Shown here piece by piece: positions 1,846 to 20,321 of a stretch of 64,000 nt of DNA (its first letter is position 1; each line of letters opens with the position of its first letter). The notes beneath the pieces are model-generated. The model was not told the origin of the DNA. It saw only the letters and a program-made list of their open reading frames with translations, and made no database searches. The position numbers were made by a program, and so were the translations under genes. The stretch is from Verrucomicrobiota bacterium (GTDB taxonomy: Bacteria; Verrucomicrobiota; Verrucomicrobiia; Opitutales; Opitutaceae): positions 1 to 64,000 of the forward strand of contig JAUWBF010000009.1 in the NCBI GenBank assembly GCA_030601755.1, given 5' to 3'.

Positions 1846-1888
1846 CCGCGCGCCGCGAGTGGCCGATGGCCGGTTGCGCGGGCGCCGT

Positions 1889-3148: not shown

Positions 3149-3321
3149 GGCGTAGAACCTGTATTTTGCCGGATGCTCGACGCACCCGAAATTACAAAGG
3201 ACTCGGACGGGGGGCGGCAAACGCAGTTAGTAGGCTGTTTATCCGTGGGTATAACGAACCGTTCCTGCGAAGACAAAAAACGCCCTTCCCGGACGGCCCT
3301 CTGAGTAAGTCGCCAAGGCGG

Positions 3322-4173: not shown

Positions 4174-4304
4174 GGAATGGTGGTCAGGGTTGAAGGCGCG
4201 TGGGCGCGATGCATCACGCGGGGAATGCATATCAAGGCAAACCACCGTCGGAAGTGCAGTCATACACAATGCCAACGTTTGCAGTGCGCGACGGTGGGCG
4301 GCGC

Positions 4305-6130
4305 TTATTTGTCGTCGAGTTCCGCGCGCACGACCAGCGAGTGCACCGGTCTGTCCACGGTGAACAGAACGCTCACTCGGCGCAGGTCTGCGGGCGGCTG
4401 GTCCCAGGCGTTGGGCGCGTTGGAGGCGTCCTCGTCGACCACTTGGAATGCCGTGTCGGCGGTGACGGTGAGGCGAAGCGTTCGGCCATCTTGGGTGAGC
4501 ACTGCCCCCGAGGGGCTAACGTCGACCCTAGCCTGCGTTATCCAGGAAAAACGATAGACCGCGCCCGGCTTTGCGTTTGCCAATGTGTCGCGAAACTCGG
4601 CCGATTTGGGAGAATCCACCCGCAGTTTGCGTCGCAGTCGGCCAACTTGCCCGGCGTAGAGCGGCGTCAGGTCGATCTCCGCGGCGCGTGCCTCCGCATC
4701 GAAGGCGGTCAACGGAGCAGTGGCCGTTTCAATCGGGAGAGCGTCGTCGATCAGAGGTATCGAATGTGCATCCGGACCAACCACAAAGACCCGCCAGCGG
4801 TCCTCGCCAAACAGGCTCAGGCCATGCGCCTCGACGTGCGCATAGCGAGGCATGCCGCAGTCGATCGCCCAGCGCACGCCGTCCAGCTCCATGATGAAGG
4901 AGCCGACGTCCATGTGTCCGTGGCTGGAGCGTGGCGATCCGCCCTTGATGGCCACGCAGAGAGCGTCGCGTCCGACTCCCGAGCGAAACACCGCGAGCGG
5001 ACTCTCGCCGCCGGTCGACCAGGCCTCCGGCGCGGCGAGCTCGCCGGCTGTCAGGCCGTCGGCGGGCATCCACAACAGCGCGAGCGGCAGGAAGCGTGAC
5101 GGGAATCCGGGCTGACGGCCCTCGGCGATTGCTTGCCGGAAAGCCGTCGCGGCCGCGGTCAGGCGGGCGGCCTCGTCCGCAACAATACCCGGGCAATTGG
5201 TCTCGCGGGCAAACCAATACTGCTCGGGCGCAAACTCGCGCCTTGGTCTGCAATCGCCGAAGTTGAGAAAGTCACCCGATGGCGCGGTGAGCGTGTTGAA
5301 GGCAGCGCCGCTTTGCAGGAACGCCCGGTTGGTCGCCAGCTCGCCGGCCGAGCCCTCGCCGGTTCGCAGCGCCTCGATCAGCAGCAGATGATAGGCGGTG
5401 CCGTAGCCCCAATACATCGGCCCCTCGACATAGGCTCCGTCCGGTTCGTAGCTCGGGAAAATATCCGGTGTGTTGCGTCGCGCGCGGGCGATGGCGCGTG
5501 CGGCCAGCTCCGGTTCGTCCTCGCGGACGACGAGGGCGGCGAGCGTCAGGCCGGCCTCGCACACCTGCAGCCAGTTGTTGGCCGGAGTGCGCCGCCGCCA
5601 CCAGTGCGAATCGTCGTCGCCGGGGCGCAACGCATGCGACACGAGCGCGTCGTGAATCGCGGAACGACCGGCCGGGCTGAGCTCGTCGTGTAGCCAGTCA
5701 TAACCGATGGCCATGGCGGTGGCCGCCTCGGCCACGTCCAGGAAGTGCGACGGGTTCCAATCGCTGAAAGCCGCCAGCGCCAGCATTTCCTTTTCCGCGC
5801 GGGTCGACCACCGGCTGTCTCCAGTCAACCGATACATCATCGCGAAGCCGAGCACGCGGCGAAGGGCCGTCCGACTGGTGTCCAGCAGACGCCGGCCGAC
5901 CATCACGCGCTCGACGGACGGAGCGTCGTGGTCAAACTCGGCCACGGCTCGCACGAGCTCAAGCACCTCGCGCTCCGGCCCGTCTCGCGTCACGGCCGCA
6001 CGCAACCGCTCGAAGTCGGAGTCGTTAGCCAGAAGGCGTGGGTGCCGTCCGTGGATGGAGTGGGGACGGCTTGGCTGAGCAGGGGCATGAGCAACAAAAA
6101 CGGGACAACGCGAACGAACAGACAGGGCAT
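4305..6130 (-). CDS. Heparinase II/III-like polysaccharide lyase, frame break after signal peptide
   Basis: Putative secreted lyase of uronic-acid-containing polysaccharides. The mature part begins at HPRLLANDSDFERLR and runs through an all-helical toroid (NNWLQVCEAG, EGPMYWGYG) to the family's conserved SSHGHMDVGSF block and a beta-rich C-terminus; total about 600 residues, normal for the family. The continuous open frame begins at a GTG at 6146 and has no signal peptide. In the neighbouring frame, an ATG at 6130 encodes a textbook one (MPCLFVRVVPFLLLMPLLSQ followed by AVP, a likely cleavage site). The two frames would join by a one-base change between about 6041 and 6100. This could be a real mutation or a base-call error. 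It lies 62 bases below the GH5 gene. Confidence 0.82.
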
Positions 6131-6192
6131 GGGTAATGCACGCCACTAGACCACCGTAGCATCCGGAGGCAGTAATATTCGTCGCGCCCGTT

Positions 6193-7275
6193 TTAACTCA
6201 CGGCGACCGGTCTCAGTCCCAGCGCCGCCACGACCTCGACATCGGGAGCGCGCACGCCGGCATCATCGCGTGGCGCGACGGCGAAACACCCCGAGTAGTC
6301 CCACATGGTCCAGCCGATGCCGTTGTCCGCGAGCGCCCCCGACACATCCCGCAGCCATGCCAGACGCGACGCGCGCGGGCTGAAATCGCGATAGACGCCA
6401 AACTCGTTGCAAGTGAGCGGCAGACCATGTCGCTCGGCCCAGGCCACCGCCGGTTGCACGAACGCGTGGTAGGTCGCGGCGCTCCAGCCGATCTCCACGT
6501 ATTCCCGCAGGTGGCGAAGCGCGTTTGCATCGGTGATGCCGCGCATAAACTCCGCGACGAAGGCGGCGTCGGCCGGGTAGGTCAGCCCCTTGGTCAGCAT
6601 TGCCCACGGCGGCGACCAGCTCGCGCCCTGATGCGTGAACGCGATGGGGTCGTAGAGGTGGAAATTGGCGATGACGTTGCCGTCGTCCGGAGGCGTGAGC
6701 TTGAGCAGTTCCGGCACGGGCGAGCACTTGTCGCCCGAGATGATGAGCGTGTTCAACGGAGCCTCGGCGCGGATGGCGGCGACCGTGGTGTTTTGCAGGT
6801 CGTTCCAGCGGGCGGCGTCGTTGATGCAGGGCTCGTTGAGGATTTCCAAAAACACACGCTCCGGGTCGAGCGGGGCGATGGCCGCGGCGAGTTGCCGCCA
6901 GAGATCGACGAAGGCCTCCGCCGTGGCCGGCGACGCGGCCAGCTCGCGTTTGAACGGATCCTCCGGATGCACGTCGATGATCACGGCTAGCCCATGGCCG
7001 ATCAGGCGGACGATGTTTCGCAGGATGCGGTCAAGGTAATCGCGCGGCAACATGCCGCCGGTCGCGCCGGCCAGCAGCGGCTCGCAGGCGATCGGCAGTC
7101 GCACGTGGTCGAAGCCCATGTCCGCCACAAGCGCGAGGTCGTTCTCGCGGATGTAGGCGTCGAAGTGCCCCGCGGTGTAACCGGGTTCCCAATACACCTG
7201 GGAAAACCAGTGGCTGAGGTTGACGCCGCGCCGCAGGCGGGCGGCGCGGTCAAACACGGCGGAATGCTGGATCAT
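6193..7275 (-). CDS. Glycoside hydrolase family 5 (cellulase-like) enzyme
   Basis: Retaining (beta/alpha)8 hydrolase likely to cut a beta-linked glucan or mannan. The protein of 360 residues starts MIQHSAVF and shows RRGVNLSHWF, the HVRLPI strand, the acid/base motif LEILNEPC (Glu148) and the nucleophile motif LTCNEFGVY (Glu291). There is no signal peptide at the chosen ATG (7275), so it may act on imported oligosaccharides. A longer reading frame exists but overlaps the PEP-CTERM gene above, so the internal ATG was preferred. The gap to that gene is 37 bases, suggesting cotranscription. The subfamily and substrate cannot be settled by eye. Confidence 0.9.
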   Translation of the reverse strand: MIQHSAVFDRAARLRRGVNLSHWFSQVYWEPGYTAGHFDAYIRENDLALVADMGFDHVRLPIACEPLLAGATGGMLPRDYLDRILRNIVRLIGHGLAVIIDVHPEDPFKRELAASPATAEAFVDLWRQLAAAIAPLDPERVFLEILNEPCINDAARWNDLQNTTVAAIRAEAPLNTLIISGDKCSPVPELLKLTPPDDGNVIANFHLYDPIAFTHQGASWSPPWAMLTKGLTYPADAAFVAEFMRGITDANALRHLREYVEIGWSAATYHAFVQPAVAWAERHGLPLTCNEFGVYRDFSPRASRLAWLRDVSGALADNGIGWTMWDYSGCFAVAPRDDAGVRAPDVEVVAALGLRPVAVS

Positions 7276-7312
7276 TGATGGAAAAGATGGATGCGTCGCG
7301 ACCGCCTGAGCG

Positions 7313-8125
7313 TCAGCGACGCCGGCGACGGCGTCCGCTGACAAATGCAAGGCCGCACAGGCCGGCGAACAGCCCGGCGACTGAGGGCTCGGGAATGGCG
7401 GCGAGTGAAGTGATCTCGACGTAGCCGCCGCCGATATCGGTGACCAGCAGGCCGGCGCCGACGCCGTCACGCACACGTCCGCCGATCAAGGACTCGGCGG
7501 CGGACACGGAGCTCAGCAATTGCAGCCGGGAGTCGGCGCTGTTCATGAAAATCGCACCGGCGGATGCGGAGGAATAGGGAGTCGCGGTGTCGAAGCGCAC
7601 GGTGATGTCGCCGAGGTTCATGCCCCAGGAACCGACCGTGCCGCCAAACCCGGTGATGGCCGACGCGAGCTGGAGGGTGCCGCCGCCGTCGACGGTGACG
7701 TTCTGGCTGCGTTGGTAAAAGCTGTTGGCGAGCACCAACGTGTTGCCCGACGCGACGGTCCAGTTGCCGGTGTAGCGTTGCTCAAACGACATGCTCAGCG
7801 TGTTTGTTCCCGCGCCCGCGCTGGTGAGCTGGGTCAGGTTGCCGAAGGGCGAACCGGTCAGGGTCCAGCCGGCCGATTGAAAGTTGATGCCCAGTATGCT
7901 GCGACCTGCGGAGAGATTGACCGTCCCTGCGGTGACGGTCGCGTTGAAGACCGCGGTGTCTCCGTAGTCGTTGTTGGCCGGAACCGTGTTGCCGCTCCAG
8001 TTCAGCGCGGTGGTGAACTCGCCATCTCCGGCCTCGCCGTCCCACGTGCGGTTGGCGGCGACGAGCGTCGTGCAGAGCGCGGAGAGCGTAAACAGAGCGG
8101 CGGAGGCGATCAGGGGTGTTTTCAT
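7313..8125 (-). CDS. PEP-CTERM secreted protein with autotransporter-type beta repeats
   Basis: Exported, envelope-sorted protein of 270 residues. It has a Sec signal peptide (MKTPLIASAALFTLSALC onwards), then NRTWDGEAGDGEFTTALNW, the opening seen in autotransporter-associated beta-strand repeat proteins, a Ser/Thr/Gly-rich beta-helix-like body, and a C-terminal sorting tail: PEPS from residue 245, a hydrophobic stretch and RRRRRR. Such tails are processed by exosortases; none is encoded in this window. It is the first gene of a run with GH5, heparinase-like and SGNH genes, and a shared promoter-like motif lies 72 bases upstream. The role is unknown; surface binding of polysaccharide or matrix formation is a guess. 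Confidence 0.88.
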   Translation of the reverse strand: MKTPLIASAALFTLSALCTTLVAANRTWDGEAGDGEFTTALNWSGNTVPANNDYGDTAVFNATVTAGTVNLSAGRSILGINFQSAGWTLTGSPFGNLTQLTSAGAGTNTLSMSFEQRYTGNWTVASGNTLVLANSFYQRSQNVTVDGGGTLQLASAITGFGGTVGSWGMNLGDITVRFDTATPYSSASAGAIFMNSADSRLQLLSSVSAAESLIGGRVRDGVGAGLLVTDIGGGYVEITSLAAIPEPSVAGLFAGLCGLAFVSGRRRRRR

Positions 8126-8196
8126 GATAGGTATGGGCTTGGGGTGACTAAGAGAGGCGGGGAACCCATATTGATACTCCCTGCCGCCGGAGTTGG

Positions 8197-8234
8197 GTTA
8201 ATGCGTAGCCGACCCGTGATGTGTCTATCCCTGA
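8197..8234 (-). promoter_or_regulatory. Shared bipartite promoter motif, copy 1
   Basis: On the minus strand: TCAGGGATAGACACA, 17 nt, ATTAAC. It directly abuts the stop codon of the MFS gene and points at the PEP-CTERM gene starting at 8125. The same layout occurs at 18393, 21334 and 22373. Confidence 0.6.
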
Positions 8235-9701
8235 TCAGGTCGTGGCGGGCGATGGAGCGGTTCCCGTCGGAGCCGGCGGCGTAAAGCCGTTCTGACCGCC
8301 GAGCTTCTTCCACTCGCGGTAAAGCAACCAGGTGAAGACAAAGGCCGCGCCCTGGAACGCGAAGTTCCACACCGGCAGGAACCGGTAGCAGTATTCGGGA
8401 TCCGGATGCAGCCTGCCGACCAGATCGAAGTAGGCGCCGCAGGCCACGCCGCCCACGATCAACGCGCCGGAGCGCACGAGCGCGTTGGCCGATGAGAACT
8501 GTCCGTAGCGGTCCATCGGAAACACCTTCATCAGGGCCGGCAGCTCCGAGGCCGCGTAGAGCGTGTGGATCGGCAGGCTGGTGACCGCGAGCACGACGAA
8601 GATCCACGGCACCCACTCCGCCGCGATGTCCGGCCGCAGCATCGCGAACGTGATCGAGAACGGCCCCATGAACGCCTGCAGGCCGATCGCCAGCAGCATC
8701 ACGCGCAGCGGGTGCTTGCGGTCGGCGAGGATGCCGGCCGGGTAGAGCAGGGCCACGCCGACGATGCCGCAAACGCCCGAGACCTTGCCGATGAAGCCGA
8801 AGTCGAGACCGAGGTATCGGGTCTGGTAAAGCAGCACGTAGGAGCCGGAGGCCCACGTCATGGCCACGCAGGCGTTGGCCAGAAAGATGAACCAGTAGAA
8901 ACGATGCGTGAAACACTCGGTGGCGTAGGTGCGCAGCGCGGCGCGAAATCCCCGGCGCTCGCCCACGTAGGCCGGCGGCGGCGGATAGTCGCCCTCGCGG
9001 ACCTTCCAGCACATCATGAGAAACGCCACGAGGTAGAGCAGCCCCGCGATCAGGAAGATCTGCTGCATGTGCGTCTCGGCGTATTTCAGCACGAAGAAGT
9101 TGTAGCCCGCGCCCGCGCAGGAGCCGACCACGCGGAACAACGCCATGAAGCGCGCGAGGAAGACGTGCGGGACCACGTCGTTGAACAGGTAGTAGTAGAC
9201 CGACGTGATGAAGAGATTGAAGAACTGGAAGCAGACCATGAACACGCCGATGACGACCAGCATGACGGTCATTTCAGAGAAGCGGCCGTGCAGCGCGATG
9301 TCGTGCAGCCAGCGGCCGATGGGCACCGCGTAGCCGAGCAGGATCAGGAACAGCACGAGAAACGGTGTCGCTCCGAACAGGAACGGAATGCGCCGGCCCC
9401 AGCGGCTGCGAAACCGGTCGCTGCGAAAGCTGATGACCGGGTTGATCGCCGCCGACATGATGTTGGGGATGGTCGTGACGATCAGTCCCAGCGACCAGTT
9501 GGGCGCGCCGATGCCGTTGAGTTTGATCGGCAGGATGCTGGGCACGACCGTCTCCATGAGCGTGAAGCAGAAGTCGCCCCACAGGAGAAAGAGGAAGAGC
9601 GTGATGAGCCCCGCCTTGGTGTAGCTGAGCGTGCCGACCTTGAAGCGGTCGGCGTCGGCGGACGGGTTGATGGATGCGGCGGGGGATGCGTTGGCGGACA
9701 T
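8235..9701 (-). CDS. MFS transporter, probable oligosaccharide/sugar uptake
   Basis: Inner-membrane secondary transporter of 488 residues with about twelve hydrophobic segments. The loop after the second helix pair reads SDRFRSRWGRRIPFL, the classic MFS cytoplasmic loop 2-3 signature and close to the glycoside-pentoside-hexuronide:cation symporter style. A repeated helix-loop pattern is seen in the second half (YPAGILADRKHPLRVM). It ends the operon read GH1-GH16-prepilin-like-small secreted protein, 127 bases below the last of these, which suggests it imports the sugars those enzymes release. The ATG at 9701 gives a short hydrophilic N-terminus. The substrate is inferred from context only. 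Confidence 0.85.
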   Translation of the reverse strand: MSANASPAASINPSADADRFKVGTLSYTKAGLITLFLFLLWGDFCFTLMETVVPSILPIKLNGIGAPNWSLGLIVTTIPNIMSAAINPVISFRSDRFRSRWGRRIPFLFGATPFLVLFLILLGYAVPIGRWLHDIALHGRFSEMTVMLVVIGVFMVCFQFFNLFITSVYYYLFNDVVPHVFLARFMALFRVVGSCAGAGYNFFVLKYAETHMQQIFLIAGLLYLVAFLMMCWKVREGDYPPPPAYVGERRGFRAALRTYATECFTHRFYWFIFLANACVAMTWASGSYVLLYQTRYLGLDFGFIGKVSGVCGIVGVALLYPAGILADRKHPLRVMLLAIGLQAFMGPFSITFAMLRPDIAAEWVPWIFVVLAVTSLPIHTLYAASELPALMKVFPMDRYGQFSSANALVRSGALIVGGVACGAYFDLVGRLHPDPEYCYRFLPVWNFAFQGAAFVFTWLLYREWKKLGGQNGFTPPAPTGTAPSPATT

Positions 9702-9828: not shown

Positions 9829-10596
9829 TCAGTTGCTGGCCGAAGGCGGCAGAACCTCGGCGATCTTCCTCAGCCGCAGATCGACGGGCGCCGGGTCGTC
9901 TTCAGTGGGCGGAGGATCGATCAAGAAAAGGGTCAGCCGGGTGTCGCGAGCCAGCATCTGGGTGCTGCTGACGATCGGCCGCCATTGGCCGGTCACCAGC
10001 GTGGCGACCTGGAGCTTGGTGCGATAAGTCTCGGGATAGGGAATCACGGCGCTCTTGAACGGATCGAGCGTGGTCGACTTGGCTCCAAACATGACGGCGG
10101 AGGGACGGCGCGAAAAACTGATGACGCGCAAATGATCGGCGGGATGGGTCGACGCGGAGTCGTCCAGGACCATCGGCAGAAACTCCAGGGGACCTCCGTC
10201 GGGTGCGCGTGGTGCATTCGACGGCAGCAGATAGGCTGGCACGAGGATGATGACGCGCGGTGTGGGCGGCTGGTCGGCCCCCGAGGAGCGCGGCGGGAGC
10301 CTAAGCTGGGCGACGATGATCTTGGCAGGGGGGAGCTTGGGGTCTGGATTGTCGACCAGTCGGTAAAGGGAAAGTTCGCCGTCGAGCGGGATCGGATAAG
10401 GGCGGGAGTAGGTGGTCGTGGGAAAGTCGACGGTGTTCGTGGTGCGCGGGTCGACGTCGTAGCGCAGCGGTTCGGTCGGCCCGAGCGATACCACGCGAAA
10501 GGTGTCGGGTCGCGGCGCCGCCTGGGCGTTGGCGATGGATACGCCGAAGCAGACAAGCACGGCCGGCAGGATCAGATGTCGGAAGGTGAGAGCCAT
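9829..10596 (-). CDS. Secreted protein of unknown function next to prepilin-like protein
   Basis: I do not recognise this 255-residue protein. It starts with a Sec signal peptide (MALTFRHLILPAVLVCFGVS, cleavage after ANAQA) and continues as a proline-rich, charged domain without cysteines or clear motifs. Its start overlaps the end of the giant prepilin-like gene by 25 bases, so the two are almost certainly translated together and may act together. The ATG at 10596 was chosen because it opens the signal peptide; a longer upstream frame lies inside the neighbouring gene and looks like a shadow. It is probably periplasmic or outer-membrane associated. Confidence 0.75.
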   Translation of the reverse strand: MALTFRHLILPAVLVCFGVSIANAQAAPRPDTFRVVSLGPTEPLRYDVDPRTTNTVDFPTTTYSRPYPIPLDGELSLYRLVDNPDPKLPPAKIIVAQLRLPPRSSGADQPPTPRVIILVPAYLLPSNAPRAPDGGPLEFLPMVLDDSASTHPADHLRVISFSRRPSAVMFGAKSTTLDPFKSAVIPYPETYRTKLQVATLVTGQWRPIVSSTQMLARDTRLTLFLIDPPPTEDDPAPVDLRLRKIAEVLPPSASN

Positions 10597-13500
10597 CGGA
10601 AGGAGACGATTTTGTATTGGCGACCGAACCGCTGGCTGAGCGTGCCGTCGGCGGGCGTGTCCGCGGGATTGAGGGAGTCCTCCACGTAGTCGGGCATGCG
10701 CTGCACGACGGCCTCGCACCACGCCTGAGAGTTGACGGTCTCGTTGACCGGATTGACCGATTCACCGTAGGCGCGAACGGTGAAGGTGTCCGAGCGGGCG
10801 GAAAGACCGCCGCCGATCGCCGCAAGCACGTCGGCCTGAGTGAGGAACTTCGGAGCATTGGCCGAGGAGGCGCGCTGCGGGGTTTTTTCGGGCGTGTCGT
10901 TCACGTCGCCGCGGGCGAGGGGCAGCGAGTAGTAGGTAAGCGTGCCGGGCGGCAGGTCGCCGATCGTGCGGGTGTTGCCCCAAAACGAGGAGCCGGCGAA
11001 ATCATTGCTGGCGTAGGCGGTGGGGGTGCTCGCGGGCGTGGCGTCGATGGCGGCCTGCAGCGCGCCCTTCATGCCGATGAGAAAGGTCTGCTTTTGCTCG
11101 GCGGTGAGTCCCGACTGCACGGCGTAGGGAGCTGTCGATTGCACGAAGGAGGCGTTGTCGACGAGCCGGCGGTTGACGAAATCGGCGAGGGAGACAAACG
11201 GGCCACGCGCTCGGATTTCCGCGACGAGGTTGCGCGCCAGCTGGGCGATCTGCTCGGGCGAGAGCACTCGGTAACCTTTCCAGAGCGCGTCCATGTCGGC
11301 GCCTTCGTAGTAACCGTAGGCGGTGGTGGTGCCGGAGGGCGCGGCCACCTGCGAGACGCCGGAGGGCAGTCCGGGGCCGGAGTCGGGATCGAGAAAGCGG
11401 GAGAAGGCCACTCCCAGCGCGGGGCCCGAGGCGTTGGTCTCGGGGTCGTAGGCCAGTTGGTTCAACCCTCCGAGAACGGCGCGCCAAGCCTGCTCGGAGG
11501 TTGAGTTGATGTTGAAGCCGCCGGCGAGCAGCAGGTGGGACGCGGCGGCGTCCGCGTCGGACTGCAGTTCGGAGTCCGAGGGCGAGCCGATGCGGACCAA
11601 CCGGGGATTGTCGAGCGTTTGGGGCACGTTGCCGGAAACGGGCACGGTGGAGAAAAAATAACGATCCCAGAGTGTCCTATTAAGCAGCCAGGAAGCATCG
11701 TAGTAACGCATCTGACGGTTCGCGACGTCCACGGGCGCGCTGCCGGTGGACTCGAGCAGGCGGTTGGTGTTGAGGATGCGAAAATCCGCGATGGCGTTGC
11801 CCACCGGGTAGGCCGGATAGCTGCCGGCCAGCGACAGGTTGGCGTGTTGCAGATGGGCGATGGACATGAGCGGTTGTCCGGCCTCGCGAACCTCAAAGAG
11901 GCTGGCGTTCACCGACCGGCCGGTGCGCAGGTCGCGGTCGAGGCTGATGCCCGCCGAGGCGTGTTCGAAGTCGACGGTGTTCTCTAGGAACCACACGGGC
12001 CAGGCGTCGGAGGACGTCGTGATCTTTGAATAGTATGGAGTCACGTGATTGGGATCGCGACGGGTGCGGAAGAGGTAGGGGGCGCGGATGTTGCCCTGCG
12101 CGATCCAGCGGTAGCGCGGGATGCCGGCGCCGTATTGATCGTTGAGCACGTAGCCGCGGCCGATGGCGGAAAAGATCGACATGGTGAACCACTTCAAGTC
12201 GGGCTCGCGAATGGCGGATGGTCGGGGGAGGGGAGCGGCGGACGCGAGGATGTTGCCGGGATTGTCGATGGCCGCGTAGTCCACGCGCTGAATGGTCTGA
12301 TACCACGCGTTGCGGGTGTGGTCCCAGTCGCCGTCATTGTGGGCGGAAGGCGTGGCGCCCGCCTCGCCGAGGTAGATGGCGGTGTGGCCGTTCTGACCGT
12401 TGCGCAGGCCGTCGCGGGCGACGGTTTGGAAATCATGTCGATAATCCTCGGCGGTGACGACGGCGCCTGTGTCGATCGACGCGTAGTTGTGGGAGTTCAG
12501 GCCGGGGAGCATCGTGTTCGTGCCCGGCAGATAGGCTGATTGGCCCCCAAGGGTGAACATCAGGCTCTCGCCCGCCTCCAGGGCGGGGCATTCGACACGG
12601 AAGCGAAAGTAACGGACCGGGTAGTCGGTGCCGGCGGGCTTGGGCGTGGTGATGTCGCGGAGATTAAACGAGATCTTGTCGACCCAATTGCGCGTGGTCG
12701 GGGTCGCCGGATCGGGGTGATCGACCTGCAGCATCATCTCGCCGCCGGTATTGCGCATGAAGCCCACGCCGATCTCGTAGGAACGGCCGGCCATGCGCTT
12801 GTTGTAGGGATTCCACAGCACGGCCACGGGGTAGACGTTCAGCCGGATGCTGGTGCCCTCGGGCACATGGCCGTCGGTGTCGGTCGCAACCGTGGCGTCG
12901 GCCTCGAAGCTGAAGCCGAGCGACGTGTAGGTGAGGATCGGATACACCCCGATTTCGCCGGCGGCCCCGCTGTCGTAAACGGGACGGCGGGGCGTGATCA
13001 CGCCGGCGGTCGCGGTCGTCGCGTAGTGTGAGCGCAGGTGTCCCCAACTGGGGATGAAGGTGGTGTTCTCGGCGGCGTTGTCGGGCACCCAGAGGCGGTC
13101 GGTGTTGTCGGGGCCCTCGGCGTCGTTGGCGAGGATTCTGGTCAGGTCGTGTCTCAGTCCGCCGGCGTAGGTGTCGGAGAGCACGGAAAGGGAGGAGGCG
13201 GTGACGTCGTGAAAGCGATGTTTGAGGGCGGCGGCCATGCTGTCCGCATCATCGGAGCCCATGATGGTCTGGGTGGGCGTGACGACATCGGCGACCGAGT
13301 CAAAACCGGGGTCATAGACACCGGCGATCCGGGGCGAGTCGAGCGCTCCGGCGTCGACGCCGGAGACCATGAGCTCGACCGCGGCGCGGCTGGCGCTCGC
13401 AAAGGCCCGGCGCTTTTGCCCGAGTTGCTCTCCGCTGGTCAGCGACGGGTCGGTGCCGGCGAGCGGGAGGTTGACGCGGGCCTTGGCGCCCTCGTCGCCG

Positions 13501-14309
13501 ACCCACCAGGCGTAGCGGCCGATGGTGACGGGACCGGTTTGACCGGGAGCCTCGGCTTGGATGTCAACCGCGGGAGCCACGACATAGTCGGCCGGCACGT
13601 TGGAGTCATCAAGGGCGGAATCGACGCTGTTGCCGCCGACAAGCAGGCGCCCGGGAGTGGTGCCGGCAATGGGGCTGGCGAGGGTGATGTCCGTGGAGGT
13701 TGCGGGAGTGGAAACGGTGAGCCCGGAGATCGTGGCGTCAGGAGAAAATCGGATGCCGGTGGGCGAGGTGGTGATCTGACCGCTGTCACCCACATCGCCG
13801 GTGCTCCGGCGGGGATCGAAATCGGTCTGCTCGTTGCCGCTGACCAGCCAGTTGATCAGGCGCGCGGAGGAGCCGTGCGCGTCGACGTTGGAGGTGTTGG
13901 TCAGCGCCGCTTGGATGGCGGAGGGCGTGTCGTCGTAATCGGCGGCGACGGAGCTGCCGTAGGCGCCGACCCAGTGGGGGTTGGGCGCGTCGGCGCCGTG
14001 CTCGAGGTCGGCGCGGGCGGTGGTGCGCTGGTCGGGGCCGGTGTATTTCTGCAACTCGCCGACGGCGATGTTGAGCGCCATGAGCGCGTTCTGGCGGGCC
14101 TGCGAGAGTTGCTGGCTGTTGGCGGCGACCTGTGTCTCGACCCGCGTGAGCGCGGCGAGGGAAACGAGGATCAACACGAGGAACGCGACGAGCGTGATGG
14201 TGATGAGCAGCGCGAAGCCTTCGCGGGCCGCGCGGGGGCGGGGGCAACCCGGGGTCCGCGGGCCGGTGTCGGCGGGGCGACCGGAGGACTGTGGGGGGCG
14301 GCGGGTCAT
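10572..14309 (-). CDS. Giant prepilin-like protein (Verru_Chthon cassette protein A type)
   Basis: The 1245-residue product has a type IV prepilin-like start: a basic leader, Gly31-Phe32 (the position of prepilin peptidase cleavage), then about 22 hydrophobic residues (FALLITITLVAFLVLILVSL) and RVETQVAANSQQLSQARQNA. The following ALNIAVGELQKYTGPDQR is the signature I associate with the Verrucomicrobia-specific 'Verru_Chthon cassette protein A' family. The remaining 1100 residues are Ser/Thr/Asp-rich and probably extracellular. Other cassette members (B, C, D prepilins) are not adjacent here. The gene is the third in a GH1-GH16 operon and may form a surface or secretion structure used in polysaccharide attack; that role is inference. 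The leader glycine is present, but the usual pilin Glu at +5 is not. Confidence 0.82.
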   Translation of the reverse strand: MTRRPPQSSGRPADTGPRTPGCPRPRAAREGFALLITITLVAFLVLILVSLAALTRVETQVAANSQQLSQARQNALMALNIAVGELQKYTGPDQRTTARADLEHGADAPNPHWVGAYGSSVAADYDDTPSAIQAALTNTSNVDAHGSSARLINWLVSGNEQTDFDPRRSTGDVGDSGQITTSPTGIRFSPDATISGLTVSTPATSTDITLASPIAGTTPGRLLVGGNSVDSALDDSNVPADYVVAPAVDIQAEAPGQTGPVTIGRYAWWVGDEGAKARVNLPLAGTDPSLTSGEQLGQKRRAFASASRAAVELMVSGVDAGALDSPRIAGVYDPGFDSVADVVTPTQTIMGSDDADSMAAALKHRFHDVTASSLSVLSDTYAGGLRHDLTRILANDAEGPDNTDRLWVPDNAAENTTFIPSWGHLRSHYATTATAGVITPRRPVYDSGAAGEIGVYPILTYTSLGFSFEADATVATDTDGHVPEGTSIRLNVYPVAVLWNPYNKRMAGRSYEIGVGFMRNTGGEMMLQVDHPDPATPTTRNWVDKISFNLRDITTPKPAGTDYPVRYFRFRVECPALEAGESLMFTLGGQSAYLPGTNTMLPGLNSHNYASIDTGAVVTAEDYRHDFQTVARDGLRNGQNGHTAIYLGEAGATPSAHNDGDWDHTRNAWYQTIQRVDYAAIDNPGNILASAAPLPRPSAIREPDLKWFTMSIFSAIGRGYVLNDQYGAGIPRYRWIAQGNIRAPYLFRTRRDPNHVTPYYSKITTSSDAWPVWFLENTVDFEHASAGISLDRDLRTGRSVNASLFEVREAGQPLMSIAHLQHANLSLAGSYPAYPVGNAIADFRILNTNRLLESTGSAPVDVANRQMRYYDASWLLNRTLWDRYFFSTVPVSGNVPQTLDNPRLVRIGSPSDSELQSDADAAASHLLLAGGFNINSTSEQAWRAVLGGLNQLAYDPETNASGPALGVAFSRFLDPDSGPGLPSGVSQVAAPSGTTTAYGYYEGADMDALWKGYRVLSPEQIAQLARNLVAEIRARGPFVSLADFVNRRLVDNASFVQSTAPYAVQSGLTAEQKQTFLIGMKGALQAAIDATPASTPTAYASNDFAGSSFWGNTRTIGDLPPGTLTYYSLPLARGDVNDTPEKTPQRASSANAPKFLTQADVLAAIGGGLSARSDTFTVRAYGESVNPVNETVNSQAWCEAVVQRMPDYVEDSLNPADTPADGTLSQRFGRQYKIVSFRWLSPSDI

Positions 14310-14332: not shown

Positions 14333-14356
14333 GGCGTCCGGCCAGTGCCGGACGCC
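14333..14356 (-). other. Intercistronic perfect hairpin
   Basis: GGCGTCCGGC, a 4-nt loop, GCCGGACGCC: ten perfect pairs between the GH16 stop and the ATG of the giant prepilin-like gene, about 24 bases before that ATG. There is no T-run, so it is not a standard terminator. It may shield or process the mRNA, or lower expression of the large downstream gene. Confidence 0.5.
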
Positions 14357-14399
14357 GACGGAGGGTGTCGGGGCGGGGTTGTTTTGTTCTAATCGGGTG

Positions 14400-16859
14400 T
14401 CAGAGGCGGCTCTTGAGCTGCCAGGCGCGGACGTAGTCGACCTGGAAGAAGTCGGGGAGCTTGGAGAGGTCGACGTTCTTGGTGGCCCAGCCGCCGACCT
14501 GGGTGTTGAGCTTGAGGTAGGCGGGAACGTTGGAGACGCGCTCGTCGGCGTATTCCACGACCTTCTTGCCGTCGATATACCAGGTGAGCTTGCCGGGTTC
14601 CCAGAGCAGGCCGAAGTTGTGCCAGCCGTCGGGCGTGGGGCCGAAGTAGACGTGGCTGGTGCCCCAGGCCTTGTGGTCGGCGCCGTAGCCGTCCCAGTGC
14701 AGGGCGACGTTGTTGCGGCCGGGGCCCCACTCGGTGAGGTGCTCGAGGATGTCGATCTCCATGGCGCCGTTGCCGGTGTCGCGGCGTTGCCACTGGTTGA
14801 GTCCGGAGGCGGCTCTGCGGTCGGGCATCATCCAGAAGGCGGGCCAGAGGCCGCGGGCGGTGGGCAACTTCACGCGGGCCTCGAAGTAGCCATAGAGCTG
14901 GGTCCACTTGTCGTAGCTCTGGACGAGGCCGGAGGCGTAGTCGCGGGTGCCGAGCTTGGGGTCGTTGTTTTCATGGCCGAATTTTTTCTCGGTCTTGATG
15001 GAGAGCACGCCGTCGGCGACGGAGAGGTTTTCGGGCACGTAGCGGACGAGCTGGCCGGGCTGGGGACCGTCCCACGGGAAGCGCGGGGTCCAGAGCTTGT
15101 CGTTCAACCGGTCGCCGTCGAAGTTTTCGTCGAGGGTGCGAACCCAGTCGCCGTCGACCGGCGGACGTTCGCCGAGCCAGGCGGGCGGGGTGACGGGCAC
15201 GTCGCGGTCGGCGGGCGAGGTGAGCGCGACGCCGTCCTTGGCGGCGGCGGGCGAGCCGTGGGCCTTGAGGTCGGAGAGGATGAGGGTGGTGTCGGCCTTG
15301 GGGCGGACGATGAAGACCTGGATGGCGATGATGCGTTTCGGGTTGAGCGGGAAGGCGGGCGCGCCGTTCTGCTGGCCGAAGGTGAGGGAGAGGGCCTTGG
15401 TCTCGTGGGCGCCGACGGTGATCTGCTCGGTGTTCCAGGGCTCGGTCTTCCAGTGGCCGGGGTTGTCGACGCGCATGAAAACGGTGACCTTGCGATCGTT
15501 GGGGTTGGTCACGTCGACGGTGACGCCGCCGAAGGCAGAGAGGTCCCAGCCGCCCTTGGGCATGGGAAACTGGATGTTCGGATAGTTGGAACCGGCCTGG
15601 AAGGTGACCTTGATGGCGCCGTCTTCAAGCAAGGCGGAGGACTCGGAGTAGTTGAAACCGGCGAGCTTGTTCTTGGACAGGTCGAGGAGTTCGCCGCCGA
15701 TGGAGGGCGAGAAGGTGGCGTCCTGGCCGGCGGAGGCGGCGGGAGCGGGTGCGGCCGCGTCGCTTGAAGCGGTGGCGGCGCTCGCGGTGCCGAAGGGGAC
15801 GATGTTCCGCACGAGGATGGCGGCGTCGGCCTTGGGGCGAGAGACGAAGAGCTTGAGGTTGCTTATGCGCGAGGAGTCGAGGGCGTATCCGGGATTTCCA
15901 TACGACTTGCCGAAGACGACTTTCACGGTCTTCGTTTCTCCGGGGGATATCCAGGCGTCGCCGGTGTTCCAGGGCGACTGGCGCCAGTCGCCGGGGTTGT
16001 CGGCGCGGAGGTTGACCTGGAGGCGGGACTGGCCGGCGTTGGTGACCTCGGCCTGGATGCCGGCGAAACCGGTGAGGTCGAGACGTCCGCCGGCGAGCGG
16101 GAAGTCGAGGCCGGGGTAGTCGCCGCCGTTGGGGAAGGCGACCTTGAGGGCGTCGCCCTCGACGGAGAGCACCGGATTCTTCTCGGTGCGGATGGAGGCG
16201 AGGTTGTCGGCGGTCGGCTTGAAGACCGGCGTGCCGGCGGCGGCGGGCTTGGAGGCGGGCTCACCGGTGGAGGCCGCCGGAGCCGACGCGGCGGTGGCGG
16301 CCGGCGCGGTGCCGAAGGGACGAAGGTTGCGCACGAGGATGGCCGCCTCGGTCTTGGGGTTGGCGGCGAAGAGCTTGACGTTGCTCACGCGGGACGGATC
16401 GAGGGCGTAGCCGGGGTTGCCGTAGGACTGGCCGAAGGTGACCTTGAGGGTCTTGGACTCTCCGGGGGCGATCCAGATGTTGTTGGTGTTCCAGGGGGAC
16501 TTGCGCCAGTCGCCGGGGTTGTCGGCGCGAAGGTTGATGTTGAGGCGCTCCTGACTGGTGTTGGCGATGTCGAGCTGGATGCCGGCGTGGCCGGAGAGGT
16601 CGCGCATGCCGCCGATGGGGAAGTCGAAGCCGGGGTAATCGGAGCCGGCGGGAAAGACGACGCGCAGCGCACCGGTGGCGGCGTCGAAGGAAACCGAGGC
16701 GTTTTTCTCGGTTTGAATCGCGGCGAAGTTGTCAGCGGTGGCGGTGTAGAGCGGGGTTTCGGCGGCGCGCGCTACGGCGAACGTCGTGGCGAGCACGAGC
16801 GCGACGAAGGCGGAGCGAAGGAGGGGCGAGGGGGTTGGACGGATCATGGAGAAAGTCAT
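14400..16859 (-). CDS. Secreted GH16 glycoside hydrolase with three N-terminal carbohydrate-binding-like repeats
   Basis: Endo-acting enzyme, by family a laminarinase, agarase, carrageenase or porphyranase type. In 819 residues: Sec signal peptide (about 1-32), three tandem domains of roughly 150 residues (about 34-185, 210-350, 375-540) and a GH16 jelly-roll (about 570-819). Domains 1 and 2 repeat NLRADNPGDWR.SPWNT and FG.SYGNPGYALD; domain 3 is more diverged (MRVDNPGHWKTEPWNT). They are joined by Ala/Pro/Ser linkers. Similar DNPG.-.NT domains occur in agarases. The GH16 active site is EIDILE (Glu701, Asp703, Glu706), the beta-bulge form. It starts inside the GH1 stop (ATGA overlap), so the two are translationally coupled; a second ATG lies four codons in. 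Confidence 0.92.
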   Translation of the reverse strand: MTFSMIRPTPSPLLRSAFVALVLATTFAVARAAETPLYTATADNFAAIQTEKNASVSFDAATGALRVVFPAGSDYPGFDFPIGGMRDLSGHAGIQLDIANTSQERLNINLRADNPGDWRKSPWNTNNIWIAPGESKTLKVTFGQSYGNPGYALDPSRVSNVKLFAANPKTEAAILVRNLRPFGTAPAATAASAPAASTGEPASKPAAAGTPVFKPTADNLASIRTEKNPVLSVEGDALKVAFPNGGDYPGLDFPLAGGRLDLTGFAGIQAEVTNAGQSRLQVNLRADNPGDWRQSPWNTGDAWISPGETKTVKVVFGKSYGNPGYALDSSRISNLKLFVSRPKADAAILVRNIVPFGTASAATASSDAAAPAPAASAGQDATFSPSIGGELLDLSKNKLAGFNYSESSALLEDGAIKVTFQAGSNYPNIQFPMPKGGWDLSAFGGVTVDVTNPNDRKVTVFMRVDNPGHWKTEPWNTEQITVGAHETKALSLTFGQQNGAPAFPLNPKRIIAIQVFIVRPKADTTLILSDLKAHGSPAAAKDGVALTSPADRDVPVTPPAWLGERPPVDGDWVRTLDENFDGDRLNDKLWTPRFPWDGPQPGQLVRYVPENLSVADGVLSIKTEKKFGHENNDPKLGTRDYASGLVQSYDKWTQLYGYFEARVKLPTARGLWPAFWMMPDRRAASGLNQWQRRDTGNGAMEIDILEHLTEWGPGRNNVALHWDGYGADHKAWGTSHVYFGPTPDGWHNFGLLWEPGKLTWYIDGKKVVEYADERVSNVPAYLKLNTQVGGWATKNVDLSKLPDFFQVDYVRAWQLKSRL

Positions 16860-18283
16860 TTGCCGGCGGTGGCGAGCGCGGCGGGGGTGAAGGGTGACGC
16901 GGAGTCGACGGAAGGAGTTTGGTGCAGGCTGGCGCCGTTGCTACGGATGACGTCCCGATACCAATAACCGGAGTCCTTGATGGTGCGAACCTGGGTGGCG
17001 TAATCGACGTGGACGAGGCCGAAGCGGTGCTTGTAGCCCTCGGCCCACTCGAAGTTGTCCATCACGGACCATTGGAAATAGCCGCGCACGTCGACGCCCT
17101 CGGCGATGGCGCGCTCGAGGCCGAGCAGGTAGCGCTGCAGGAAGTCGATGCGGTGGCCGTCGTGCACGCGGCCGTCGAGCGCCACCCAGTCGGGCAGCGA
17201 GAGGCCGTTCTCGGTGATGACGACGGGAAGCTTGTAGCGTTCGTGCAGGAACTTCGTTCCCCAGTAGAGGGCGTCGTCGGTGCGCTTCCAGAGAAAGTGG
17301 GTGTGAGGAAAACCCGCGCCGACATCGGCGACCTCGTGCCGCCCGTCGGCGCCGGCCTTGGTCGGGGTCGCGTGGTAGATGTTGCAGCCGTAGAAATCGA
17401 GAGGCTGCTTGATGATGTCGAAGTCGGAGTCCTTGAAGCGCGGCGCGTTCTTGCCGTAGGCGCGCAGGCCCTGCTCCGGGTAGGAGCCGAGCACGGGGGC
17501 GTCGCCCCACCAGCGGTTGTTCCAGCAGTGTTCGCCCCAGACGTCGTCCATGCCGGCGTAGGCGGCGGCGATGTCCTCGGGCTTGTCGGTGACGGGATAG
17601 TGCACCGAGCCGACCGGCGCCCAGCCGATGATCGGGCGGGTCTTGGCACGCGAGCGGATGGTCTGCACCGCGAGGCCGTGGGCGAGCAGGGCGTTGTGGC
17701 CGGCCTGCAACACCTCGCGCAGGCCGAGCTTGAGGCCGGGCGCGTGCTCGCCGTGCAGGTGGCCGAGGCCTATGAAACACTGCGGCTCGTTGAGTGTGAT
17801 CCAGTGCGAGACACGGTCGGACAGACGGTCGATGATGACGGCGGTGTATTCGGAAAACCACTTCGGGCTGTCGGGGTTGAGCCAGCCGCCGCGCATGAAC
17901 AGGTCGGTGGGGTAGTCCCAATGGAAAAGCGTCACCCACGGCTGGATGCCCGCGGCGAGCAACTCGTCGACGAGGCGGTCATAGAAGCCGAGGCCGGCCT
18001 CGTTGACCTTGCCGACGCCGGCCGGGATCACGCGCGGCCATGACACGGAGAGGCGGTAGGCCTGCAGGCCCATCCTGGCCATGAGCGCGACATCGTCCTG
18101 ATAACGGTTGTAGTGGTCGCAGGCGACGTCGCCGGTGTGTCCGTCCCAGACGCGTCCCTTTTGATGCGCGAGCATATCCCAGACGGACTCGCCTTTGCCG
18201 TCGGCGTTCCAAGCGCCTTCGATCTGGTAGGACGCCGCGGCGGCGCCCCAAGTGAAGTTGGAGGGGAATGAGGAACAATTCAT
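16856..18283 (-). CDS. GH1 beta-glucosidase
   Basis: Retaining exo-glycosidase that would trim beta-linked oligosaccharides inside the cell, since there is no signal peptide. The 475-residue protein opens with FPSNFTWGAAAASYQIEGAW, the GH1 N-terminal signature, and carries acid/base Glu166 in TLNEPQ and nucleophile Glu358 in ITENG. The ATG at 18283 gives the normal GH1 start. It is the first gene of the operon with GH16, whose ATG overlaps its stop. It is a close paralogue of the GH1 part of the divergent GH1-AraC fusion: they share HYNRY, GKVN-AGLGFYDRLVDELLAAG and GEHAPGLKL almost throughout. A shared promoter-like motif lies 110 bases upstream. Confidence 0.95.
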   Translation of the reverse strand: MNCSSFPSNFTWGAAAASYQIEGAWNADGKGESVWDMLAHQKGRVWDGHTGDVACDHYNRYQDDVALMARMGLQAYRLSVSWPRVIPAGVGKVNEAGLGFYDRLVDELLAAGIQPWVTLFHWDYPTDLFMRGGWLNPDSPKWFSEYTAVIIDRLSDRVSHWITLNEPQCFIGLGHLHGEHAPGLKLGLREVLQAGHNALLAHGLAVQTIRSRAKTRPIIGWAPVGSVHYPVTDKPEDIAAAYAGMDDVWGEHCWNNRWWGDAPVLGSYPEQGLRAYGKNAPRFKDSDFDIIKQPLDFYGCNIYHATPTKAGADGRHEVADVGAGFPHTHFLWKRTDDALYWGTKFLHERYKLPVVITENGLSLPDWVALDGRVHDGHRIDFLQRYLLGLERAIAEGVDVRGYFQWSVMDNFEWAEGYKHRFGLVHVDYATQVRTIKDSGYWYRDVIRSNGASLHQTPSVDSASPFTPAALATAGK

Positions 18284-18392
18284 GGCGTTGATGGAAGGAG
18301 TGGACGAAAAGAGTCGCAGACTGGGGGAGGCGGGGCTGTAGGCACGGGGCGTCGGGCAACATCCACAGCATAGCACCGCGGGCGTCCGTGGA

Positions 18393-18548: not shown

Positions 18549-20321
18549 ATGAGCTTTCCGACCAATTTTTGCTGGGGCGCCGTGGCTTCGGCCTACCAAA
18601 TCGAAGGCGCCTGGGACGCCGACGGCAAGGGCCCCTCCGTCTGGGACACTTTCACCAGCCGGCGCGGCCATGTTTGGGAAGGGCAGACCGGACGGACCGC
18701 CTGCGACCACTACAATCGTTACCGCGAGGACGTCGCATTGATGTCGGCCATGGGCCTGCAGGCCTACCGTCTGTCCGTGTCGTGGTCGCGCGTGATGCCC
18801 GAGGGCACGGGCAAGGTGAACGCGGCCGGTCTCGGCTTCTATGACCGCCTCGTCGACGAGTTGCTCGCCGCGGGCATCCAGCCGTGGGTGACGCTCTTCC
18901 ACTGGGACTTTCCTTATCAGCTGTTTTTGCGCGGCGGCTGGCTCAATCCCGACAGCCCGTCATGGTTTGCCAAATACGCGGCCGCCGTGGTCGACCGTCT
19001 GTCCGATCGGGTAACGCACTGGATGACGCTCAACGAGCCGCAGTGCTTCATCGGTCTCGGCCACGCCAGCGGCGAACATGCGCCCGGCCTCAAGCTCGAC
19101 TTGCCGGAGGTCCTGCTCGCCGGCCACCACGCGCTGCTCGCCCACGGGCGCGCCGTCGAGGTGATCCGCGAGCGCGCGAAGCGCAAGCCCATCGTCGGCT
19201 GGTCGCCGGCCGGCACCATCTACTACCCCGCCACGGAATCGCCCGAGGACATCAACGCCGCCCGGTTGGCCACGCGCTCCATCTGGCCGGATGGCGTTTG
19301 GAACAACCGCTGGTGGGGCGACCCGGTGGTCTTCGGTTCCTACCCCGAGGAGGGTCTGCGGGTTTATGGCGACGCCGCGCCGCGCGCGACCAAGGCCGAC
19401 ATGAAGACCATCCATCAGCCGATCGACTTCTACGGCTGCAACATCTTCCAAGGCGACGCGATCAAGGCCGGTGCCGACGGCACGCCCGTGCTCGCCCCGC
19501 TGCCCCCCGGTCACCCGCGCACGCTCTACCTGTGGAGCCAGACCCCGCAGGCGCTCTATTGGGGCGCCAAGTTCCTGCAGGAACTTTACCGGCTGCCGAT
19601 CGTGATCACCGAAAACGGCATGTCCAACTGCGACATGGTCGGCCATGATGGCCGTGTGCACGACCAGGTGCGCATCGAGTTCATGATCGCCTACCTGTTG
19701 CAGCTGCGCCGCGCCCTCGCCGAGGGCGTCGACGTGCGCGGCTACTTCGCGTGGTCGTTGATGGATAACTTCGAGTGGCAGGAGGGCTACAAGCACCGCT
19801 TCGGCCTCGTGCATGTCGACTTCGTCACGCAAAAGCGCACCCTCAAGGAATCGGCCCACTGGTATCGCGAGGTCATTCAGACCAACGGTCAGGCCCTCGA
19901 ACAATACGCGGCGGTCGACTCGCCGACGCAACCCTACGTCGTCCAGGAAACCCTGCGTTACGTGGCGGCCAACATCGGCCAGCCTTTCAACATTAAGGAC
20001 ATCGCCTCGCATCTGCGCTGCCACCCGGACTTCCTGAGCCGCAAGTTCAAGCAGCACATGCAAAGTGACCTGAGCGACCACATCCGTCGCGCCCGTATCG
20101 CGCACGCCGGCGAACTCTTGCGTCAACCCGGCATGACCATCGACGACGTCGCCGAGCGCTCGGGGTTTTCCGACCGCATTCACTTCACCAAGGTCTTTCG
20201 TCGCATCATCGGCCAGACGCCCGGACAATTCCAGAAACGCCATCGCGCCTCTCCGGAAGCGACGGCGCTGGCGGCCACGGCCGGCATCCCCCAGTCGCGC
20301 AATCCGCGCTCGTCCGTCTGA
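18549..20321 (+). CDS. GH1 beta-glucosidase fused to an AraC/XylS-type DNA-binding domain
   Basis: The 590-residue protein is a complete GH1 enzyme (residues 1 to about 455) followed without a stop by a full AraC-type double helix-turn-helix domain (about 463-565). The GH1 part keeps acid/base Glu163 (TLNEPQ) and nucleophile Glu355 (ITENG), so it looks catalytically competent. The C-terminal part shows the first helix pair (FNIKDIASHLRCHPDFLSRK) and the second with the AraC family signature (IDDVAERSGFSDRIHFTKVF, then GQTPGQF). There is no signal peptide, so it is cytoplasmic. It is divergent from, and paralogous to, the first gene of the GH1-GH16 operon, the usual place for a local regulator. 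I infer a one-component regulator whose sensor is a glycosidase; binding and hydrolysis are unproven. Confidence 0.93.
   Translation: MSFPTNFCWGAVASAYQIEGAWDADGKGPSVWDTFTSRRGHVWEGQTGRTACDHYNRYREDVALMSAMGLQAYRLSVSWSRVMPEGTGKVNAAGLGFYDRLVDELLAAGIQPWVTLFHWDFPYQLFLRGGWLNPDSPSWFAKYAAAVVDRLSDRVTHWMTLNEPQCFIGLGHASGEHAPGLKLDLPEVLLAGHHALLAHGRAVEVIRERAKRKPIVGWSPAGTIYYPATESPEDINAARLATRSIWPDGVWNNRWWGDPVVFGSYPEEGLRVYGDAAPRATKADMKTIHQPIDFYGCNIFQGDAIKAGADGTPVLAPLPPGHPRTLYLWSQTPQALYWGAKFLQELYRLPIVITENGMSNCDMVGHDGRVHDQVRIEFMIAYLLQLRRALAEGVDVRGYFAWSLMDNFEWQEGYKHRFGLVHVDFVTQKRTLKESAHWYREVIQTNGQALEQYAAVDSPTQPYVVQETLRYVAANIGQPFNIKDIASHLRCHPDFLSRKFKQHMQSDLSDHIRRARIAHAGELLRQPGMTIDDVAERSGFSDRIHFTKVFRRIIGQTPGQFQKRHRASPEATALAATAGIPQSRNPRSSV

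Follow-up and report, generated by a model that had tools for sequence, protein, structure and literature searches.

A Predicted Giant GspK-Type Pseudopilin Associated with Polysaccharide-Degrading Enzymes in Verrucomicrobiota

Introduction

GspK-type pseudopilins, such as the tip minor pseudopilin GspK/XcpX of the type II secretion system (T2SS), are not known to carry a glutamate at mature position 5. Tip complexes of GspK, GspI, GspJ, and GspH have been described as recognising secretion substrates (PMC6211770).

The Verrucomicrobiota are major degraders of polymers, and recent papers describe selfish polymer uptake in some of them. MUL genes of Akkermansia have been assigned to pili and periplasmic complexes (PMC12418764), and a type IV-like pilus locus has been described together with selfish uptake in the Akkermansiaceae, where MUL2 is proposed to serve attachment (PMC13174399). 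In Verruconatronum, an operon induced by alginate includes a gene for a PulG-like pseudopilin, of which one genome has 67 homologues, and T2SS export of the alginate lyases has been proposed (PMC13274419).

Here, we describe a giant protein encoded on a 64,000-nucleotide stretch of a Verrucomicrobiota genome (the window: positions 1 to 64,000 of contig JAUWBF010000009.1, assembly GCA_030601755.1). Common ground with MUL1/MUL2 of Akkermansia lies in type IV-like pilus genes that are needed for polymer accumulation or attachment (PMC13174399, PMC12418764), whereas MUL2 comprises a PilM-type protein and a small pilin, and no giant GspK-type tip appears in the descriptions consulted. With the alginate operons of Verruconatronum, the common feature is a pseudopilin gene among polysaccharide genes that respond to the polymer itself; their pseudopilins are PulG-like, and a giant tip is not mentioned in the text consulted (PMC13274419).

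Results

The giant gene and its locus

A reading of the DNA letters by themselves (the sequence-only reading) had proposed a 1,245-residue protein with a prepilin-like leader ending at G31|F32, and the corresponding frame proved to be intact (Table 1). The predicted cleavage site lies after Gly31, giving the mature start F32-A-L-L-I. Residues 27–58 read AAREGFALLITITLVAFLVLILVSLAALTRVE, with a hydrophobic stretch following G31-F32, and mature position +5 is isoleucine rather than glutamate. Because the same leader, body, and downstream partner recur in homologues, the frame is not a chance ORF. Conservation is uneven along the protein: the C-terminal core is its best-conserved part and the head its least conserved long stretch, with 1.11 bits per column at residues 454–819 versus 2.75 in the last 97 residues. 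The segment LAGGFNINSTSEQAWRAVLGGLNQ resembles the N-x-N-T/A motif of GspK proteins, the helical segment with LSPEQIAQLARNLVAEIRARGPFVSLADF resembles their SAM-like part, and GGFNINSTSxxAW and IRxRGPFxSLxDF occupy the positions of comparable GspK motifs.

Table 1. Positions of the features discussed in the text (window coordinates, except for the last row).
Feature	Position	Strand	Basis or remark
GH5	6193..7476	-	ORF limits; true start probably internal
PEP-CTERM protein	7313..8125	-	
MFS sugar transporter	8235..9701	-	
Partner: secreted protein of 255 aa with a pair of Ig/transthyretin-like beta-sandwich domains	9829..10596	-	
Predicted giant GspK-like pseudopilin, 1,245 aa	10572..14309	-	ORF open, intact
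C-terminal core, residues 1156-1245, RSDTFxIRAYG...AWCEAxVQR...FRWL	10575..10844	-	predicted helix and antiparallel sheet
Helical segment with LSPEQIAQLARNLVAEIRARGPFVSLADF, residues 1010-1049	11163..11282	-	alignment, model
Conserved segment LAGGFNINSTSEQAWRAVLGGLNQ, residues 928-951	11457..11528	-	family alignment
Variable head, residues 454-819, with beta-sandwich-rich insert (~454-695)	11853..12950	-	model, conservation
Prepilin-type leader (residues 1-31) and start of N-terminal hydrophobic helix (32-59)	14133..14309	-	sequence; leader-only model matches
G+C hairpin, 10-11 bp, without U-run, between GH16 and giant	14333..14357	-	
GH16 endo-beta-glucanase-like, 819 aa, signal-peptide-like N-terminus, repeated N-terminal modules	14400..16859	-	
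GH1 beta-glucosidase	16856..18376	-	overlaps GH16 by 4 nt
GH1 fused to AraC-type DNA-binding domain	18549..20321	+	divergent
G-G-H-I-J-giant K-partner operon of locus L037 (contig C104), complete	1646-8794		

On the strand of the giant gene, GH1 and GH16 genes lie upstream, and genes for the partner, the MFS transporter, the PEP-CTERM protein, and GH5 lie downstream. Judged from gene spacing, cotranscription of the giant with the GH genes is plausible to likely, as had been proposed. A 90-nt gap that contains a hairpin without a U-run splits the GH16 and giant genes. The fold of this gap was not significant relative to shuffled sequences (z -1.6), and a promoter scan gave no match. SusCD systems of Bacteroidota share with this locus the proposed role only, polymer capture tied to locus-encoded enzymes; they differ in that no TonB receptor or SusC/SusD-like protein was found among the nine window proteins of the locus that were scanned. 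Genetic linkage to fitting GH genes, as expected of a Sus-like uptake system, is present.

The window GH16 carries three similar N-terminal modules of ~150 residues each, without a clear Pfam family. Full-length homologues of the divergent GH1–AraC fusion occur near giants at five other loci (L047, L048, L054, L059, and L067), a recurrence that suggests the fusion may be an enzyme-regulator of the locus.

Family membership

The giant had been likened to Verru_Chthon cassette protein A (TIGR02600). Against that model it scored 27.8 bits, with a cut-off of 332.3, over residues 31–93 only; the GspK model NF037980 gave 22 bits (cut-off 130) over residues 30–94, and a Pfam search of the giant gave no match. 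None of eight matches to TIGR02600 in the window's own genome rose above the cut-off, and a profile–profile comparison (hhalign) with five aligned true TIGR02600 members matched over 72 N-terminal columns only. Because both the sequence match and the profile comparison are confined to the leader and N-terminus, we place the giant outside TIGR02600.

The two families resemble each other in size, leader, phylum, and the presence of several copies per genome, and in both some copies are associated with B-, C-, and D-like pilins. They differ in that no similarity is detectable beyond the first ~70 residues, in the absence of a partner gene from the true cassettes examined, and in the genomes of the sample in which they occur. 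Of 145 genomes sampled across the phylum, 2 encode true TIGR02600 proteins, and the giant family was detected in neither of these; it was detected at E 1e-15 in at least 37 of the 145 (19 of 82 genera), with at most five candidates scored per genome. The literature searched mentions neither "TIGR02600" nor "Verru_Chthon cassette." The sequence-only reading was right about the lack of cassette genes B, C, and D at the window locus, but not for the genome as a whole, whose best B- and C-like matches, below cut-off, adjoin a giant paralogue on contig C104. These neighbors, the leader match, and the similar size would be expected if the giant were a cassette protein A that works as in an ABCD cassette; the score far below cut-off, the leader-only alignment, and the orphan state of the window copy rule out family membership on sequence grounds, and we regard this explanation as very improbable; an equivalent place in the machine would still be compatible with the data.

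Predicted structure

An AlphaFold2 model of residues 60–1245 was built with 72 family members in the alignment (pLDDT 87.0, pTM 0.91). Foldseek returned nothing significant for this model; when its candidates were compared by VIA-align, GspK of ETEC (3ci0_K) ranked first, with Z 13.2 and rmsd 3.6 over 248 of 280 residues that span model positions 1–1186, and the runner-up reached Z 3.2. The GspK fold is thus predicted over the whole body, interrupted by ~900 inserted residues that include the beta-rich head. The head itself had no significant fold match (best Foldseek E 0.02 at probability 0.05), and glycan binding is therefore not predicted from structure. Weak CBM and lectin rows in the Foldseek output for the giant were discarded (probability <0.15).

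When the profile of the giants was compared with the lone sequence of the conventional GspK encoded in the genome, no match resulted, and the GspK assignment is consequently based on fold, leader, and synteny. Together, the leader, the predicted fold, and the gene order around the C104 paralogue identify the giant, with high confidence for a model-based assignment, as a GspK-type pseudopilin and tip subunit, a narrower identity than the "surface protein" proposed initially. It shares with GspK/XcpX a leader type without Glu5, the predicted whole-domain fold, and, in the C104 paralogue, the position behind G-H-I-J. It differs in being four times larger, with an inserted variable head, in its score below the cut-off of the GspK model (22 vs 130 bits), and in that giants are mostly orphan, multi-copy per genome, and accompanied by a near-constant small secreted partner. 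By this prediction, a widespread uncharacterised family gains a structural identity.

Paralogues and pilin genes

The window's genome (3.55 Mb, 152 contigs) encodes seven complete giants and three contig-end fragments. A genome collection yielded homologues in a further 565 stretches or more, from which 77 loci, all from Verrucomicrobiota, were taken for a survey of neighborhoods. Five prepilin genes lie ahead of the C104 giant (917–919 aa), and a partner follows it. The best NCBIfam matches of these prepilins are GspG, GspG, GspH, Verru_Chthon B (then XpsI/GspI), and Verru_Chthon C, all below curated cut-offs, and their order with the giant, G-G-H-I-J-K, is the T2SS order G-H-I-J-K. At the same locus (L037), a hairpin and T-run separate the J-like gene from the giant.

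The last position in a G-H-I-J-K series is absent at the window, present for the C104 paralogue, and apparently present at L103; among ~90 giants, these two alone have several pilin genes in a row in the 6 kb upstream of them. Nearly all others are orphans, the window copy being an orphan K paired with its partner. Such isolation would suit a membrane-anchored periplasmic enzyme or scaffold with a borrowed prepilin leader, but the predicted GspK fold extends beyond the leader to the whole protein and C104 and L103 keep their pilin operons, so that we regard a function outside a pilus as extremely improbable.

A conventional T2SS is encoded elsewhere in the genome, with its own 374-aa GspK on contig C123 (63 bits against NF037980, cut-off 130). 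There are also several GspE/PilB-type ATPases, one prepilin peptidase match, and one clear set of partner pseudopilins, the G-G-H-I-J series of C104 with its own giant K. The contrast in copy number between orphan giants and pilin runs suggests, at the level of gene content, that one pilin set may be shared by many giant tips; the further pilins in the genome and the conventional T2SS with its own GspK speak against the sharing of one pseudopilus.

The secreted partner

A small secreted partner whose start overlaps the end of the giant gene had been noted before. Its ATG at 10594–10596 gives a 25-nt overlap, its N-terminus forms a hydrophobic helix, and the pairing is conserved next to homologues. 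A partner gene lies immediately next to 75 of the 83 giants with room downstream (window's genome included), mostly overlapping or within ~20 nt and commonly with overlaps of 25, 11, or 4 nt; in the window's genome, a gene of this family comes next wherever the contig leaves room. Some of the eight giants without it look broken or divergent. In its model (pLDDT 91.6), the partner folds into two beta-sandwiches whose best structural matches are PepT2 and PepT1 extracellular domains (Z 10–13), with AlgF domains matching the second domain (Z 8–9); these model-based matches would indicate shape and not function. A PDB sequence search with three profiles matched neither the giant nor the partner.

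At L062 and L068, the place of the partner is taken by a similar membrane-like protein in both (WRTLxLLGLxLGLxTLLxYxNSFxAGLTLDNKVVL), and L040 carries a tandem pair of partner genes behind a single giant fragment (11904–13420, minus strand).

Association with polysaccharide-degrading enzymes

The proposed association with polysaccharide-degrading enzymes was borne out within the window's genome, across other genomes, and on the giant tree. In the window's genome, giants on C102 (on both sides), C35, and C101 have GH5 neighbors, that of C35 also a GH3; C132 adds two esterases, one SASA and one BD-FAE-type, and C128 a fucose-isomerase-like enzyme together with a CBM96 protein. Regions no farther than 10 kb from a giant cover 4.1% of this genome and hold six of its 13 GH5 domains (binomial p 6.7e-6; counted by contig 4/9, p 3e-4). 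No enzyme adjoins the giants of C99 and C104, which stand next to housekeeping genes. In other genomes, 119 near neighbors encoded on the same strand as the giant were assigned to families, and the lists, of up to 25 families each, include GH1 (5), GH5 (3), and GH16, GH94, GH125, and rhamnosidase (2 each), with more besides; none of these enzyme families was among those listed for 111 random genes, a control drawn from the window's genome only.

GH1 and GH16 genes like those of the window adjoin eight relatives (L046, L047, L048, L049, L054, L055, L059, and L067, the GH16 of L067 being a more distant homologue), with changed gene order and across genera. Mapped onto a tree of the conserved core, the GH1-plus-GH16 label requires 2 changes versus 8.6 for shuffled labels (0 of 500 shuffles as low). 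One Rariglobus MAG has giants both with and without GH1/GH16 neighbors, which indicates that the enzyme link tracks the giant subtype rather than the organism. On this evidence, a link between giants and polysaccharide loci is very probable.

Enzyme content that follows the giant clade would also be expected of an export tip, a giant K that picks co-encoded enzymes such as the GH16 for a T2SS-like piston, with a head that recognises proteins instead of polysaccharide. Export is the main rival to a surface function since GspK-I-J-H complexes have been described as recognising exported proteins (PMC6211770), and the T2SS export proposed for alginate lyases of Verruconatronum points the same way (PMC13274419).

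DNA inversion in genus g21

In g21, another genus in another family of the same class (genomes of 2.2–3.3 Mb), a DNA switch was seen at nine giant loci of six genomes. A 13-bp site, ACGGATTCTAAAT or ACGGATTCCAAAT, flanks the leader half of the gene (~316 codons) in two opposed copies, one inside the gene near codon 316 and one, inverted, 0.2–0.3 kb upstream of the start; L182 and L188 each have one diverged copy, and the first base of one copy differs in L184 and L186. Beside pstB, genomes G021 and G111 are ON, with the leader joined to the body, and G033 and G027 are OFF, with the leader flipped away; between the two states, flanking bases are exchanged exactly at the site. Beside pyrG, a single leader is flanked by two divergent bodies. 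In three genomes (L184, L186, and L188), identity between these bodies is 40–64% across a large part of the head, whereas residues 800–1000 are essentially identical, in L186 and L188 right to the end; L184, which borders the end of a contig, has a frameshift after ~residue 1100. The two bodies of L182 and those of L187 are identical almost throughout. The core site ACGGATTCTAAAT had only one match in 1.4 Mb of other loci, and the inversion site was not found in the window or on the contigs of its paralogues.

Inversion in g21 varies the head and leaves the GspK core constant, as would be expected of an exposed recognition module, and it favors a surface-exposed head. In the PilV shufflon of plasmid R64, DNA inversion swaps the outer part of a pilus-tip protein. 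That shufflon and other invertible adhesins share with g21 the exchange of the outer part of a tip protein by inversion; g21 differs in flipping the leader half between two divergent bodies, and the switch was observed in g21 alone and not in the window's genome. Invertons are known in Akkermansia (PMC11892184), and some of the g21 switches may already be catalogued if g21 is Akkermansia.

Inversion that turns a gene ON or OFF or swaps its head is a common trait of adhesins exposed on the surface and would be difficult to square with a cargo sorter, and the g21 giants adjoin pst or pyrG with no enzyme cargo within the stretch examined. An export tip is, on balance, unlikely. Phase variation in relatives would also suit a generic pilus-tip adhesin for surfaces or particles, polymer-regulated and moving no substrate itself, for which the attachment role proposed for MUL2 of the Akkermansiaceae provides a parallel (PMC13174399). 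The tight pairing of giant subtypes with enzyme sets, however, suggests substrate matching beyond general adhesion, and a purely adhesive tip appears improbable.

L189 and L190 join flanks of the pstB and pyrG loci, which suggests recombination between the two.

Discussion

The constant core, the switched head, and the enzyme linkage by subtype lead us to propose a recognition tip. We slightly favor a model in which the giant is a GspK-type tip whose recognition head is swappable per locus on a shared pseudopilus and grips polymer. Points against it are giants that stand next to housekeeping genes and lack an enzyme neighbor (C99 and C104, and the pst and pyrG loci of g21), the missing fold match for the head, and an inversion switch that was not observed in the window's genome. 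That the head is an exposed recognition module is, by itself, probable; import or gripping of polymer specifically is possible but doubtful. Extended to the phylum, the model would have Verrucomicrobiota use interchangeable giant tips and partners on a shared pseudopilus for polymer capture or import, with the head switched by inversion in some lineages; this wider version is tentative.

In the proposed mechanism, polymer would induce the locus, which supplies its own tip and partner, and a single prepilin peptidase would cleave the leader of the giant. Its GspK core, composed of the N-terminal helix, a helical sub-domain, and the C-terminal sheet, would cap a T2SS- or type IV-like pseudopilus shared with other tips, and the large inserted head would carry out recognition, binding polymer at the surface. 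Given the GH16 and GH1 neighbors, the polymer at the window locus would probably be beta-glucan. Extension and retraction may hold or draw the polymer to the outer membrane, where the GH16 would cut it, and the GH1 and the MFS carrier would handle the products.

The idea of a surface apparatus that grips or imports polysaccharide, raised in the sequence-only reading, is thus consistent with prepilin-type export, the enzyme association, the conserved partner, and the identity of the giant as a predicted apparatus part, while its Sus-like role would be an extrapolation. By analogy, gripping or import by the giant has precedents in the phylum: the MUL genes, selfish uptake, and the alginate-operon pseudopilin. 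A multi-copy family of giant tips linked to particular enzyme sets is a concrete, testable candidate for the component that recognises the polymer in such uptake.

A 680-aa secreted protein without a Pfam family recurs at two surveyed loci (L038, 7657–13456; L039, 12277–15914), in each case adjoining a second secreted protein of ~535 aa, which is PEP-CTERM-like in L038. L038 further encodes a prepilin as well as a LacI regulator, and in L039 the ~535-aa protein adjoins the partner of a giant.
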